From the NCBI RefSeq assembly GCF_017696055.1, contig NZ_JAAORG010000001.1, positions 496,001-560,000 of the forward strand: a DNA stretch of 64,000 nt. Direction: 5' to 3'. The translations under genes were made by a program, and so were the position numbers. The DNA comes from Prochlorococcus marinus XMU1406. GTDB lineage: Bacteria; Cyanobacteriota; Cyanobacteriia; PCC-6307; Cyanobiaceae. Shown here piece after piece: positions 2,686 through 59,593 of the stretch (position 1 is the stretch's first letter; each line of letters opens with the position of its first letter). The notes beneath the pieces are model-generated. The model saw nothing but the letters and a program-made list of their open reading frames with translations, made no database searches and had not been told where the DNA came from.

Positions 2686-3270
2686 TTAACTTAAACCTAT
2701 CTCTTTTTTTAAAAAAGGAGACATAATTTTTGCAGCTTTACCTCTACTACCTAATTTATTTAGTTGTGATTGTGAGAGCTCACCGTAAACACAATTAGCT
2801 TCCTTAACCCAAAAAATAGATTCGAATTCCCCATTAGGATATTTGGGGTTCTTAAGAATTTCTCCCCAGCATATTCCTGTTGTATCTTTAACTAAGTTTC
2901 CTGAGGGATCGCACAAAACCATACAACTTATAAATCTTGCACTCCTATAAGGACTATCAGAAAGTTCATTAATTAATTTTTTAATTTTCTCATCATTATT
3001 TTTGGCATATCGAGCAGAATAAATTCCTGGTCGACCATCTAAAACATCTACTTCAAGACCCGAGTCATCAGCTAATGCCCAAGTTTTTGTCTCTAAAGAA
3101 GCTGCCTTGGCTTTAAGTAGTGCATTCTCAAAATATGTTTCCCCAGTTTCTTCGATATTTAAATATTCTGGTTGCTTCTCAACCTTTAAAGATAAAACAT
3201 CCAGCATCTCTGAAATTTCAGATACCTTTCTTAGGTTGCCACTTGCAATAGTTAGAACTGGAAGGTTCAA
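2686..3270 (-). CDS. rdgB: Non-canonical purine NTP pyrophosphatase (RdgB/HAM1)
   Basis: This enzyme hydrolyses dITP, XTP and ITP to monophosphates, cleaning the nucleotide pool of deaminated purines. The 194-residue product has the family length and signatures. These are ASGNLRKVSE at residues 9-18 (nucleotide and Mg binding), ALADDSGLEV at 65-74 with the catalytic acidic residues, and GRPGIYSARYA at 79-89. The gene is convergent with csoS1D (22 bases between stops) and divergent from csoS1. It therefore interrupts the carboxysome cluster without being functionally part of it. Its leader shares the 328-bp control region of the cso operon. Confidence 0.95.
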   Translation of the reverse strand: MNLPVLTIASGNLRKVSEISEMLDVLSLKVEKQPEYLNIEETGETYFENALLKAKAASLETKTWALADDSGLEVDVLDGRPGIYSARYAKNNDEKIKKLINELSDSPYRSARFISCMVLCDPSGNLVKDTTGICWGEILKNPKYPNGEFESIFWVKEANCVYGELSQSQLNKLGSRGKAAKIMSPFLKKEIGLS

Positions 3271-3318
3271 AATAATATAAAAAATTTATTGTGAATATTA
3301 TCTTACTTCAAAGCTTGA

Positions 3319-3378
3319 TACGGAGACAGGAAAGGTTGAACATTCCACACCTGTGTAGACAGGGCCTGTCTCGTACGG
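3319..3378. ncRNA. Candidate structured RNA in the csoS1 upstream region
   Basis: By my count, 32 of these 60 bases are G or C, in a surrounding that is strongly AT-rich. The block can fold as nested stems. The outer stem pairs TAC and GAGACAGG (3319-3321 and 3323-3330, with G3322 bulged) with CCTGTCTCGTA (3365-3375). An inner hairpin CCTGT-GTAG-ACAGG (3350-3363) sits inside. The 14-base word TTGAACATTCCACA (3336-3349) lies unpaired between the stems. The fold is nearly symmetrical, so either strand could form it. An alternative reading is a DNA operator, because AGACAGG-G-CCTGTCT (3357-3371) is a perfect palindrome. I did not recognise a known RNA family. Confidence 0.4.
3336..3349 (+). repeat. 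14-bp direct repeat, copy 1
   Basis: TTGAACATTCCACA occurs here and again, exactly, at 3567-3580. In both copies GTAGACA follows within a few bases (3355-3361 and 3592-3598). This suggests that a piece of the csoS1 leader was duplicated, or that the same binding site is used twice. Confidence 0.8.
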
Positions 3379-3446
3379 AAATAACATAATGTAAATTTTT
3401 TCTTAACACAACAGTATGTTTTGATGCACTAACTAATTCGCATAAG

Positions 3447-3462
3447 TATTGACATATCAATA
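3447..3462. promoter_or_regulatory. Perfect 16-bp palindrome, possible LysR-type operator
   Basis: TATTGA-CATA-TCAATA has six-base arms around four bases and contains the T-N11-A pattern of LysR-type regulators. The half-sites resemble the TCAAT-type arms reported for the cyanobacterial carbon regulators NdhR and CbbR. It lies about 140 bases upstream of csoS1. Which regulator binds, if any, is inferred only. Confidence 0.4.
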
Positions 3463-3566
3463 GTACCAAGGGTGATAAGTTTAACTTATGAATGATAGAA
3501 AAAACATTAATGGAGATTTTGTCGAAAACGCTTGACTTATAAGTACTTAATGAAGCATTCTTCGAA

Positions 3567-3580
3567 TTGAACATTCCACA
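3567..3580 (+). repeat. 14-bp direct repeat, copy 2, in the csoS1 leader
   Basis: This is an exact second copy of TTGAACATTCCACA. It ends 18 bases upstream of the csoS1 ATG, about where a ribosome would first contact the message. It could affect translation of the first carboxysome gene if it is bound by an RNA or protein. Confidence 0.8.
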
Positions 3581-3598
3581 TTTAGTATTTAGTAGACA

Positions 3599-3910
3599 AT
3601 GGCTACAGAAACAATGGGTATCGCTCTCGGCATGATCGAGACACGCGGACTTGTACCTGCAATCGAAGCAGCAGACGCAATGACAAAGGCAGCAGAAGTT
3701 CGCCTTATTGGTCGTGAATTCGTTGGTGGCGGTTATGTCACAGTATTAGTTAGAGGCGAAACAGGCGCAGTTAACGCAGCTGTAAGAGCTGGTGCTGATG
3801 CTTGTGAAAGAGTTGGTGACGGTTTAGTTGCAGCTCACATTATTGCTCGTCCTCATAGAGAAGTTGAACCTGCTTTAGGTAACGGTGAATTTCTTGGTCA
3901 AAAGGACTAA
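3599..3910 (+). CDS. csoS1: Major carboxysome shell hexamer CsoS1
   Basis: CsoS1 forms the hexameric tiles of the alpha-carboxysome facets, with a small central pore for bicarbonate and sugar phosphates. The 103-residue product is a single BMC domain. It starts with the short MATETMGIALGMIETRGL strand-helix unit, carries the pore-lining FVGGGYV segment at residues 41-47, and ends in a tail typical of the CsoS1A group (RPHREVEPAL). It is the first gene of the carboxysome operon, 69 bases ahead of rbcL. There is only one csoS1 copy here, whereas thiobacilli carry several. Codons are noticeably richer in strong-binding bases than in the neighbours, consistent with high expression. Confidence 0.98.
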   Translation: MATETMGIALGMIETRGLVPAIEAADAMTKAAEVRLIGREFVGGGYVTVLVRGETGAVNAAVRAGADACERVGDGLVAAHIIARPHREVEPALGNGEFLGQKD

Positions 3911-3919
3911 TTAATTAAA

Positions 3920-3939
3920 GCAAGATTTATAAATTTTGC
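3920..3939 (+). promoter_or_regulatory. Inverted repeat between csoS1 and rbcL
   Basis: GCAAGATTTA and TAAATTTTGC pair over ten positions, one of them G-T. In RNA the central bases would open to form the loop. It is weaker than the two hairpins farther down the operon, but it occupies the same kind of junction. Confidence 0.3.
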
Positions 3940-3979
3940 ACAATAATTATTTTCCCTATACAGACCTAAATTTATCCTT

Positions 3980-5395
3980 ATGAGTAAGAAGTATGACGCA
4001 GGGGTAAAGGAGTACAGAGATACCTACTGGACTCCAGAATATGTACCCCTAGACACCGATTTACTAGCCTGTTTCAAATGTACAGGTCAGGAAGGTGTTC
4101 CAAGAGAAGAAGTTGCAGCAGCTGTTGCCGCTGAATCTTCAACAGGTACTTGGTCAACAGTTTGGTCCGAGTTACTTACAGACTTAGAATTTTATAAAGG
4201 ACGTTGTTATCGAATCGAAGACGTTCCTGGAGATCCTGAAGCTTTCTATGCTTTTATTGCATATCCTTTAGATCTTTTTGAAGAAGGCTCAATTACAAAC
4301 GTATTAACATCTCTTGTAGGAAACGTTTTTGGATTTAAAGCTCTAAGACATCTCCGTCTAGAAGATATTAGATTCCCAATTGCTTTCATTAAAACTTGCG
4401 GTGGTCCACCAAACGGAATCGTAGTTGAAAGAGATCGACTTAACAAATATGGAAGACCTCTACTTGGTTGTACCATCAAACCTAAATTAGGATTATCTGG
4501 TAAAAACTATGGTCGAGTTGTATATGAATGTCTTAGAGGCGGTCTTGATTTAACGAAGGATGATGAGAATATTAATTCTCAACCATTCCAACGTTGGAGA
4601 GAAAGATTTGAGTTTGTTGCAGAAGCAGTTAAGCTTGCTCAGCGAGAAACTGGTGAAGTTAAAGGTCACTATCTAAATTGTACTGCTAACACTCCTGAAG
4701 AACTCTATGAAAGAGCTGAATTTGCAAAAGAGCTAGATATGCCAATCATCATGCATGATTATATAACTGGTGGTTTTACTGCAAATACTGGATTAGCTAA
4801 TTGGTGTCGTAAAAATGGCATGCTTCTGCATATTCACAGAGCTATGCATGCTGTTATTGATAGACATCCAAAGCATGGAATTCACTTCAGAGTTCTTGCA
4901 AAATGTTTGAGACTATCTGGAGGAGACCAATTACATACTGGAACCGTGGTTGGAAAACTAGAAGGTGATCGTCAAACAACTCTTGGTTATATTGACAACT
5001 TAAGAGAGTCATTTGTTCCTGAAGATAGATCTAGAGGTAACTTCTTTGATCAAGATTGGGGTTCAATGCCTGGAGTATTTGCAGTCGCATCAGGTGGTAT
5101 CCATGTTTGGCATATGCCTGCACTTCTAGCGATCTTTGGGGATGATTCATGCCTTCAGTTCGGTGGAGGAACACATGGTCATCCATGGGGTTCAGCTGCT
5201 GGAGCTGCAGCTAATAGAGTTGCTTTAGAAGCTTGTGTAAAAGCCCGTAATGCTGGTCGCGAAATCGAAAAAGAGAGTAGAGACATTCTTATGGAAGCTG
5301 CTAAGCATAGTCCTGAATTAGCTATTGCTCTAGAAACTTGGAAGGAAATTAAGTTCGAGTTTGACACTGTCGACAAGCTTGATGTTCAGGGTTAA
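3980..5395 (+). CDS. rbcL: RuBisCO large subunit, form IA
   Basis: The large subunit fixes CO2 onto ribulose-1,5-bisphosphate inside the carboxysome. The 471-residue protein has the full catalytic set: Lys167 in [12 protein letters not shown], the carbamylated Lys193 with Asp195 and Glu196 in TKDDEN, and the loop-6 segment [11 protein letters not shown] near residue 325. The N terminus ([17 protein letters not shown]) and the proteobacterial-type sequence mark it as form IA, the kind packaged in alpha-carboxysomes, not the form IB of beta-cyanobacteria. This reflects the known ancient transfer of this operon into marine picocyanobacteria. It is cotranscribed with csoS1 and rbcS, and a stem-loop follows the stop codon. 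Confidence 0.99.
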
Positions 5396-5484: not shown

Positions 5485-5826
5485 ATGCCTTTCCAGAGCA
5501 CAGTAAGCGACTATCAAACAGTTGCAACCCTGGAAACATTCGGTTTTTTACCACCGATGACCCAGGAAGAAATATATGACCAAATTGCGTACATAATTGC
5601 TCAAGGTTGGAGTCCAGTTATTGAGCATGTTCATCCAAGTGGATGTATGCAAACTTATTGGTCTTATTGGAAACTCCCATTCTTTGGGGAAAAAGATCTT
5701 AACTTGATCGTGAGCGAATTAGAGGCATGCCATAGAGCATACCCTGATCATCATGTAAGAATCATCGGATACGATGCTTACACTCAAAGTCAAGGAACAG
5801 CTTTTGTAGTTTTCCAAGGACGTTAA
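5485..5826 (+). CDS. rbcS: RuBisCO small subunit, form IA
   Basis: RbcS caps the L8 core to form the L8S8 holoenzyme. The 113-residue product has the usual form IA small-subunit pattern. It includes the conserved early segment ETFGFLPPMTQEEIYDQI (residues 18-35) and the HPSGCMQTYWSYWKLPFFGE stretch (around 51-70). The end VRIIGYDAYTQSQGTAFVVFQ forms the last strand. It lies 89 bases after rbcL, and a stem-loop stands on each side of the gene. That arrangement fits separate adjustment of RuBisCO and shell or scaffold protein levels. Confidence 0.98.
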   Translation: MPFQSTVSDYQTVATLETFGFLPPMTQEEIYDQIAYIIAQGWSPVIEHVHPSGCMQTYWSYWKLPFFGEKDLNLIVSELEACHRAYPDHHVRIIGYDAYTQSQGTAFVVFQGR

Positions 5827-58424: not shown

Positions 58425-59593
58425 TAGTGCTGGAAGAAACTTTAAATAAAAAGTGGAATTGGTGGCCATTATTCCCCTTATATCCTTATGGAAAAAAGAA
58501 AACAATTTTAAGAGAATTAATTCCTGATCAAATATGGTCCTTGGAACAAATACAGGGACTTTATTATGTTGCGGTTCCAATAAGAATGACGGTAATAAAG
58601 GTTGATAATGGATTGATGCTAATAAATCCACTGCCTCCGACAAAAGAATTAATAAATGAGTTAGAAAAATTAATTGCGATTCACGGCAACGTAAAAACAA
58701 TTATTCTACCGAGTGCCTCTGGACTAGAACATAAAATCGGACTGCCAGCTCTTTCAAGAGTTTTTAAAGATGCAGAAATTTGGCTTTGTCCTGGACAATG
58801 GAGTTTCCCCATAAATCTACCACTAGATTTTTTAGGAATTCCATCAAAAAGATCAAGAATACTGTTTGAGGAAGGTACTCCACATACAAACTTCTTTAAA
58901 TGGTCTTCATTAGGCCCACTGAATTTAGGACTTGGAAGATATCAGGAGATTAGTTGTTTCCATTATCCTACAAAAACTCTTCATGTAACAGATGCAATAG
59001 TTGGAATAGACTCCACACCACCTGAGATATTTAATTTTGATCCAACTCCACTTCTTTTTCATTCTAGAGAGAGAGGAGATGAACCTTTGATTGACTCCAT
59101 CGAACAAAGAAAAAAAGGATGGAAAAGGTTAGTCTTATTTTCATCTTTTTTGAAACCAGGTAGATTAAATATTCCACCCTTAAAAAAAATATTTAAGTAT
59201 GCTTTCAAAAAAGATCTTAGAAATTGGAGATCTCATTTCGGTATTTATCCCTTTTTATGGGACGAAGATTGGGAATCCTCTCTTGATGAATTAATGGGTA
59301 AAGATAATCCTAAGATTCAAATTGCACCAGTTCTACAAAAATTAATTTTTCCGCGTTCAAAAGAAGTTTTACTTAAATGGTTAGAAAATATCAAATCTTT
59401 TGAAGATATGGAATATTTAATTCCAGCTCATTTTACGGCGCCTATAAAATTTACAATAGAAGATTGTCAAAAATTAATTAATGAAATTAATTCACAAAAG
59501 TGGGACAAACTTCCTGAGGATAATAAATTTTTGATGGGTTTATATAAAAAGTTGTTTGAACTAGGAATAATTCCTGAAGAAGTAAATTTTTAA
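58421..59593 (+). CDS. DUF4336 protein coupled to the Mn transporter
   Basis: The 390-residue protein matches DUF4336, thought to have a metallo-beta-lactamase-related fold. The N-terminal part (MTVIKVDNGLMLINPLPPTKELINELEKL, about 50-80) and ILPSASGLEHKIGLPALSRVF follow that pattern. Few of the usual metal histidines are present, so it may not be a metal hydrolase. The ATGA overlap with mntB is good evidence of coordinated synthesis. A link to manganese handling is inferred from this position alone. Confidence 0.8.
   Translation: MIVLEETLNKKWNWWPLFPLYPYGKKKTILRELIPDQIWSLEQIQGLYYVAVPIRMTVIKVDNGLMLINPLPPTKELINELEKLIAIHGNVKTIILPSASGLEHKIGLPALSRVFKDAEIWLCPGQWSFPINLPLDFLGIPSKRSRILFEEGTPHTNFFKWSSLGPLNLGLGRYQEISCFHYPTKTLHVTDAIVGIDSTPPEIFNFDPTPLLFHSRERGDEPLIDSIEQRKKGWKRLVLFSSFLKPGRLNIPPLKKIFKYAFKKDLRNWRSHFGIYPFLWDEDWESSLDELMGKDNPKIQIAPVLQKLIFPRSKEVLLKWLENIKSFEDMEYLIPAHFTAPIKFTIEDCQKLINEINSQKWDKLPEDNKFLMGLYKKLFELGIIPEEVNF

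Follow-up and report, generated by a model that had tools for sequence, protein, structure and literature searches.

A conserved folded element between rdgB and csoS1 as a candidate antisense regulator of the carboxysome-Rubisco operon in Cyanobiaceae

The rdgB-csoS1 spacer and its folded element

We analysed a window of 64,000 nucleotides of the Prochlorococcus marinus XMU1406 genome, which, judging from its nearest named relatives, is of the high-light type. In this window the minus-strand gene rdgB/ham1 and the plus-strand gene csoS1, which is followed by the genes of both Rubisco subunits, are separated by a spacer of 328 nt. The features of this locus are as follows.

2686-3270, minus strand: rdgB/ham1 (Ham1 family by Pfam), on the same strand as the element and downstream of it
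3318-3376, minus strand: predicted folded antisense element, defined by a covariance model and by covariation; outer stem formed by 3365-3376 with 3318-3330
3350-3363, minus strand: inner hairpin of the element, 5 bp, with arms 3350-3354 and 3359-3363 and loop 3355-3358
3336-3349, minus strand: predicted antisense stretch, whose RNA sequence, TGTGGAATGTTCAA, is the complement of part of the csoS1 leader
3473-3491, no strand assigned: TGATAAG-N5-CTTATGA, resembling a palindrome, ahead of the predicted csoS1 promoter; judged by eye to be conserved in the alignment
3599-3910, plus strand: csoS1 (BMC-domain shell protein by Pfam), with its ATG at 3599
3980-5395: Rubisco large subunit gene, after csoS1
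5485-5826: Rubisco small subunit gene

The palindrome at 3473-3491 may be an operator through which a LysR-type regulator (RbcR) acts on the cso promoter.

The original prediction had singled out a GC-rich, foldable stretch in this spacer, and 32 of the 60 bases at 3319-3378 are indeed G or C, in a window whose GC content is 32.3%. Its proposed 11-bp outer stem and 5-bp inner hairpin agree with the fold that we found, in which the outer stem of the window sequence consists of 8 bp (3323-3330 with 3365-3372) and, beyond one bulged base, gains three further pairs on the plus strand, or four on the minus strand if G-U is included (3318-3321 with 3373-3376). Covariance model R2 matched positions 3375-3319 of the minus strand with 55.1 bits. 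As a single sequence, the element folds only modestly better than shuffled sequence, with -16.8 kcal/mol for the minus strand (z -1.21; 25 of 200 shuffles as good) and -20.6 kcal/mol for the plus strand (z -2.40; 3 of 200 as good), and because of this modest fold the evidence was weighted toward comparison across genomes. A weak second match of the model in the window (59148-59209, minus strand, 22.1 bits) is AT-rich, lies antisense within a 390-aa open reading frame and was rejected as probably due to chance.

As had been noticed before, the 14-mer TTGAACATTCCACA occurs exactly at 3336-3349, within the element, and again at 3567-3580, where it ends 18 bases before the csoS1 ATG. We found no further exact copy in the window, and four sites with at most two mismatches, against 0.98 expected. 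A direct repeat of at least 14 nt arose in the 328-nt spacer in 2 of 2000 dinucleotide shuffles.

Distribution, covariation and strand of the element

With a covariance model trained on 28 diverse copies, the element was detected in 273 of 400 Cyanobiaceae genomes, representing 44 of 59 genera; by our own reading of the list, five of these 273 genomes have two matches and the others one. Recognisable versions occur in low-light Prochlorococcus, in marine Synechococcus and in the LaPlata MAG. In a class-wide search of 242 genomes, 24 genomes of the family had a match; two from outside it had marginal ones (E 0.0055 and 0.009), which we treated as chance. Among 114 loci of close relatives (some genomes counted twice, two loci incomplete), both 14-mers were exact in 98. 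The 15-mer GGTTGAACATTCCAC was also present in 34 stretches of viral contigs, in 21 of them within a frame that stays open for ~150 nt on each side; the model gave six weak matches, the best with E 0.0021, among these stretches, which had been preselected for containing the 15-mer. By eye none of the stretches has an element-like fold, and they were rejected as elements.

RNAalifold reported no structure for the first alignment, in which rows of differing hairpin length were probably misaligned, and we used instead a hand-written structure, followed by a covariance model and realignment. Covariation of the stems had been proposed as a check of the original prediction, and compensatory changes were found: in alignment A2 (92 distinct rows), whose fitting to the structure model favours covariation counts, 12 of 14 pairs showed changes on both sides, compared with 7.0 in shuffles, and there were 103 compensatory cells compared with 18.2 (score 0.278 versus 0.161; 0 of 500 shuffles as high). 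Two short partial rows of A2 are matches to csoS1 leaders, not elements, and after their removal the same 12 pairs and 103 cells stood against 7.1 and 17.7 (0 of 200 shuffles as high). Sliding the partners by one to three columns reduced pairing in A2 from 92.2% to 36-63%, and entire stems have been replaced, as in GAGACAGG/CCTGTCTC, GCAGCGG/CCGCTGC, GAAACGG/CCGTTTC and GAGCCGG/CCGGCTC. This pattern of change indicates that the element acts as a structured RNA.

We evaluated its strand by the direction of wobble pairing and by its putative promoter. The minus-strand model contained 80 G-U cells and 22 A-C cells, the latter corresponding to G-U in a plus-strand reading; the outer helix alone gave 33 and 16, and the MAFFT alignment A1, which predates any model, gave 35 and 18. 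Consensus scoring across loci placed a putative promoter ahead of the outer stem.

3406-3411, minus strand: predicted -35 of the element, TTGTGT
3383-3388, minus strand: predicted -10 of the element, TATGTT, after a 17-nt spacer, with the RNA start at ~3376, at the base of the extended outer stem

The minus-strand score for a sigma-70 type promoter averaged 6.80 of 12 over 91 loci, and none of 200 base-shuffled sets scored as high (2.96, sd 0.29); the plus-strand control gave 3.46. Kinship is ignored in these comparisons. Among the 57 loci that scored at least 7, the spacer was 17 nt in 43, and the -10 ended 6-8 nt before the stem in 46. A promoter scan of the window under a stricter rule returned no promoter-like site in 3200-4000. 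Together, the wobble pairs and the conserved -35 and -10 favour transcription from the minus strand, with a predicted start at the outer stem; against it stands the better fold of the plus strand in the window's own sequence.

The csoS1 leader word and alternative explanations

The second copy of the 14-mer lies just downstream of a putative csoS1 promoter that we recognised by eye.

3532-3537, plus strand: predicted csoS1 -35, TTGACT, conserved by eye
3556-3561, plus strand: predicted csoS1 -10, CATTCT, after an 18-nt spacer, with the mRNA start at ~3567-3569 (by eye)
3567-3580, plus strand: target word TTGAACATTCCACA, lying where the csoS1 mRNA is predicted to begin

Because the word comes after a conserved TTGAC and, ~18 nt further on, a CAnnnT-like box, we expect the csoS1 mRNA to begin with it, and a minus-strand RNA from the element would thus be complementary to the first bases of that mRNA. 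The complementarity between element and csoS1 leader in the window extends over 17 nt when G-U is allowed, and the predicted duplex has -31.3 kcal/mol, compared with -10.9 (sd 2.7) for shuffled leaders. Over 87 loci, many of them close kin, the longest complementarity of an element with its own leader (G-U allowed) averaged 14.18 nt; with permuted partners it was 12.90 nt (sd 0.14; 0 of 10000 as high) and with shuffled leaders 8.0, kinship being ignored in these comparisons. The two words mostly do not drift independently, which was the other check that had been proposed. At the sequence level, covariation, the direction of wobble pairs, the putative promoter and the coevolution of the words thus support the earlier suggestion of a minus-strand RNA with a loop that complements the csoS1 leader.

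Changes matched between the copies were seen directly: GAACATCCC occurs in both copies at two loci (L122 and L186), CATTCC in both copies at two others (L245 and L262), and CACA in the high-light strains is a further clade-specific change shared by the copies. The full word GAACATTCC was absent from the longest match in seven of the 87 loci (L109, L122, L129, L135, L186, L215 and L246), of which L122 and L186 share their changed word; the loop of L097 has one mismatch, and that of L208 is changed. The pattern used to find the csoS1 start missed 27 loci, in which the gene is absent or differently spelled. Among the high-light strains, conservation of the words barely exceeds that of the remaining spacer (identity of 99.9% and 99.3%, compared with 90-99% elsewhere in the spacer and 100% in the csoS1 -35).

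In three genera that we take to be Cyanobium-like (g45, g49 and g61), the element is separated from csoS1 by 1532-2463 nt in the 24 genomes for which both positions are available, and GAACATTCCACCCC is exact in all 26 csoS1 leaders counted (L264-L289; L290-L293 were left out). In both of the loci with an insertion that were read, L167 and L169, sbtA and sbtB lie between rdgB and csoS1 (Sbt_1 and P-II by Pfam in L167), and the element has remained beside rdgB. With the genes of a bicarbonate transporter and its P-II-like partner inserted between the element and csoS1, the predicted promoter of the RNA is divergent from sbtA. HAM1, sbtA and sbtB are named as neighbours in the main text of PMC4499774.

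The csoS1 word also tracks the presence of the element. From the 127 of 400 genomes in which the model had no match we drew 22 with no element or a degenerate one; these belong to a hand-chosen set of 30, in which six others had model hits and two had an element by eye (G219 and G222) and were excluded. The word GAACATTCC was intact in 84 of 87 loci with an element, compared with 6 of 22 without (Fisher 1e-11; kinship ignored), the altered forms in element-less genomes being GAACCTCC, GAACTTCC or similar. The six genomes that keep the word with no detectable element are G288, G166, G197, G177, G236 and G156. A second model, applied to 40 genomes that included these 22, gave marginal matches in 12 (E 0.02-0.09); those in G177 and G222 fall at the element locus, and G231, G273, G315 and G340, which also had matches, are genomes in which the position of csoS1 was not located.

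As rdgB lies downstream on the same strand, the element might instead be its structured 5' leader, a cis-acting switch or stabiliser, with the match to csoS1 having some other cause. This reading is consistent with the synteny and with the position of the rdgB IASGN motif, which was found in 81 of 91 loci at a median of 91 nt after the stem (range 60-257); with the scarcity of terminator-like sites after the element (8 of 81 loci, compared with 2.05 in shuffles); and with the retention of the element beside rdgB in L167 and L169. However, it leaves unexplained why the csoS1 word tracks the loop, why substitutions are matched and why the word has mostly decayed where no element was found, and we consider it improbable as a complete explanation; a role as rdgB leader is, moreover, compatible with pairing to csoS1. 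In the same region a CA(C/A)AATGG-like word, with at most one mismatch, occurs in 43 of 81 loci, compared with 3.65 in shuffles, mostly ~40 nt past the stem on the minus strand (for example in L130, L242 and L225). This word is perhaps the rdgB -10 or the loop of a second hairpin. In several loci it sits in the loop of a small hairpin.

The word is found elsewhere in the genome, where GAACATTCCA has nine occurrences and the full 14-mer occurs twice more, across the 3' end of an ABC-transporter gene and in the predicted leader of a sigma-70 factor (by Pfam), which is probably the principal sigma factor.

L171 1499-1512 (G000:C1:452535-452548), minus strand: 14-mer at the predicted mRNA 5' end of the sigma-70 factor gene, with predicted promoter -35 TTGCCG, 17 nt, -10 TAGTAT

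Of the 51 genomes of the genus with a match, the closest 30 were examined; two loci were unreadable, and this copy was exact in the other 28. In other genera, 49 of 58 sigma-factor loci were scanned and none had the 13-mer with fewer than three mismatches, and we rejected the sigma-factor leader as a family-wide target; given this absence, it would be a recent target, if a real one. Eleven of those loci (L398, L399, L403, L405, L406, L412, L413, L417, L420, L422 and L442) have a leader that can be recognised by eye as homologous; where the word would stand, these leaders seem to begin with a conserved stretch of their own, TTG(A/G)(A/G)CAG, after which comes a GGCTG-like partner.

The position of the word at the predicted +1 of both csoS1 and the sigma-factor gene would also suit a DNA operator, with GAACATTCC bound by one factor at the csoS1 +1, at the rdgB-side promoter and at the high-light sigma-factor gene. 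Such an operator predicts neither compensatory stem changes around one copy, nor an excess of G-U over A-C, nor the clade-specific extension of the match, and we judge it slightly less probable still than a leader acting on rdgB alone. Far less probable is cotranscription of the element with csoS1 from the plus strand, as part of its upstream leader, although the single-sequence fold is better on that strand: the predicted csoS1 -35 and -10 come only after the element, the plus-strand promoter score (3.46) is close to that of shuffled sequence (2.96), the direction of the wobble pairs opposes it, and in other genera 1.5-2.5 kb separate the element from csoS1. The related suggestion of the original prediction, that the two words are paired protein sites within the csoS1 transcript, is likewise unsupported, given the same position upstream of the predicted promoter, and because in the RNAs the words would be complementary, not identical. 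Lastly, although repeats this long do arise in shuffles, a chance repeat or functionless trace of duplication is largely refuted, unless the alignments are wrong, by the element's presence in 44 of 59 genera, its covariation and the tracking csoS1 word, and a leader duplication as originally envisaged does not explain conservation on either side of inserted genes, which leaves this reading with almost no probability.

A candidate antisense RNA and its relation to known systems

We consider it likely that the element is a base-pairing antisense regulator of the carboxysome-Rubisco operon, expressed either as a small RNA or as the leader of rdgB/ham1. According to this model, an RNA of at least ~60 nt would start at ~3376 on the minus strand, as the conserved promoter suggests, and its outer stem would enclose the hairpin and an exposed antisense stretch, GUGGAAUGUUCAACC. 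This stretch would pair with the 5' end of the csoS1 mRNA (GAACAUUCCAC...), from the predicted +1 to ~+14 and upstream of the ribosome binding site, and the pairing could extend into the strand of the hairpin that also matches the leader. The csoS1 leader is ~30 nt long, which puts a duplex formed by its first 14-16 nt within reach of the ribosome. Such a duplex would most likely block loading of the 30S subunit and reduce the synthesis of CsoS1, the product of the first gene of the operon. Alternatively, the duplex might shield the 5' end of the mRNA from RNase E; from the geometry of the leader we lean slightly toward repression of initiation over such protection. The RNA could be a separate sRNA or the 5' leader of rdgB, which begins tens of nucleotides downstream.

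The element (3318-3376) does not overlap the predicted start of the csoS1 mRNA (~3567), as a cis-antisense RNA would. Its arrangement is that of a trans-encoded sRNA, with 231 nt between the words in the window and complementarity that coevolves across 87 loci (kinship ignored). RblR, an antisense RNA of a Rubisco gene, overlaps rbcL in cis. The element RNA would be like RblR of Synechocystis, as PMC5306279 describes it, in acting on a carbon-fixation gene, but unlike RblR it has no overlap with its predicted target. It would also be like Yfr1, Yfr2 and Yfr10 of Prochlorococcus, which the main text of PMC6778093 presents as short structured RNAs that pair with mRNAs through a conserved, exposed segment. 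It differs from these in its conserved word and its locus, in being mostly single copy and in lying near its target. Some mRNA leaders double as trans-acting antisense RNAs, and the element may be of this kind, as rdgB follows on the same strand.

In the Rfam search of the window only tRNA reached the gathering score, and the two hits in 3200-3700 had E values of 6.4 and 7.1, so the element matches no family described there. We take csoS1 of MED4 to be at ~0.52 Mb. The MED4 ncRNAs listed in Table 1 of PMC2518516, which does not include Yfr1-Yfr7, lie away from this position. Literature searches and the main texts of PMC6778093, PMC2518516, PMC7368042, PMC5069720, PMC5607370, PMC4499774 and PMC3898218, as far as covered by term, passage or section, gave no RNA at the locus of the element; the transcript may all the same have been recorded earlier, for example in supplementary data such as the RNAz candidate lists of PMC7368042 or the five ncRNAs of PMC3898218. 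A pull-down with Yfr10 enriched the csoS1 and csoS2 mRNAs, according to the main text of PMC6778093, and the csoS1 mRNA was thus already suspected of being an sRNA target.

More speculatively, a family-wide antisense RNA might set the output of the alpha-carboxysome-Rubisco operon in marine picocyanobacteria, with high-light Prochlorococcus having recruited the sigma-70 mRNA as a second target; we regard this wider proposal as possible but doubtful. If true, carbon fixation and global transcription would be connected through one small RNA in a phototroph that is very abundant.

Prochlorococcus and marine Synechococcus account for a large share of ocean carbon fixation and have few protein regulators. 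The element RNA and the start of the csoS1 mRNA seem to have coevolved, and this suggests that an RNA switch acts on marine carbon fixation. With its compact fold and clear predicted target, the element lends itself to tests in vitro or in a tractable Synechococcus. If the proposed regulation is true, it would add a new and directly testable layer of control to carboxysome output.
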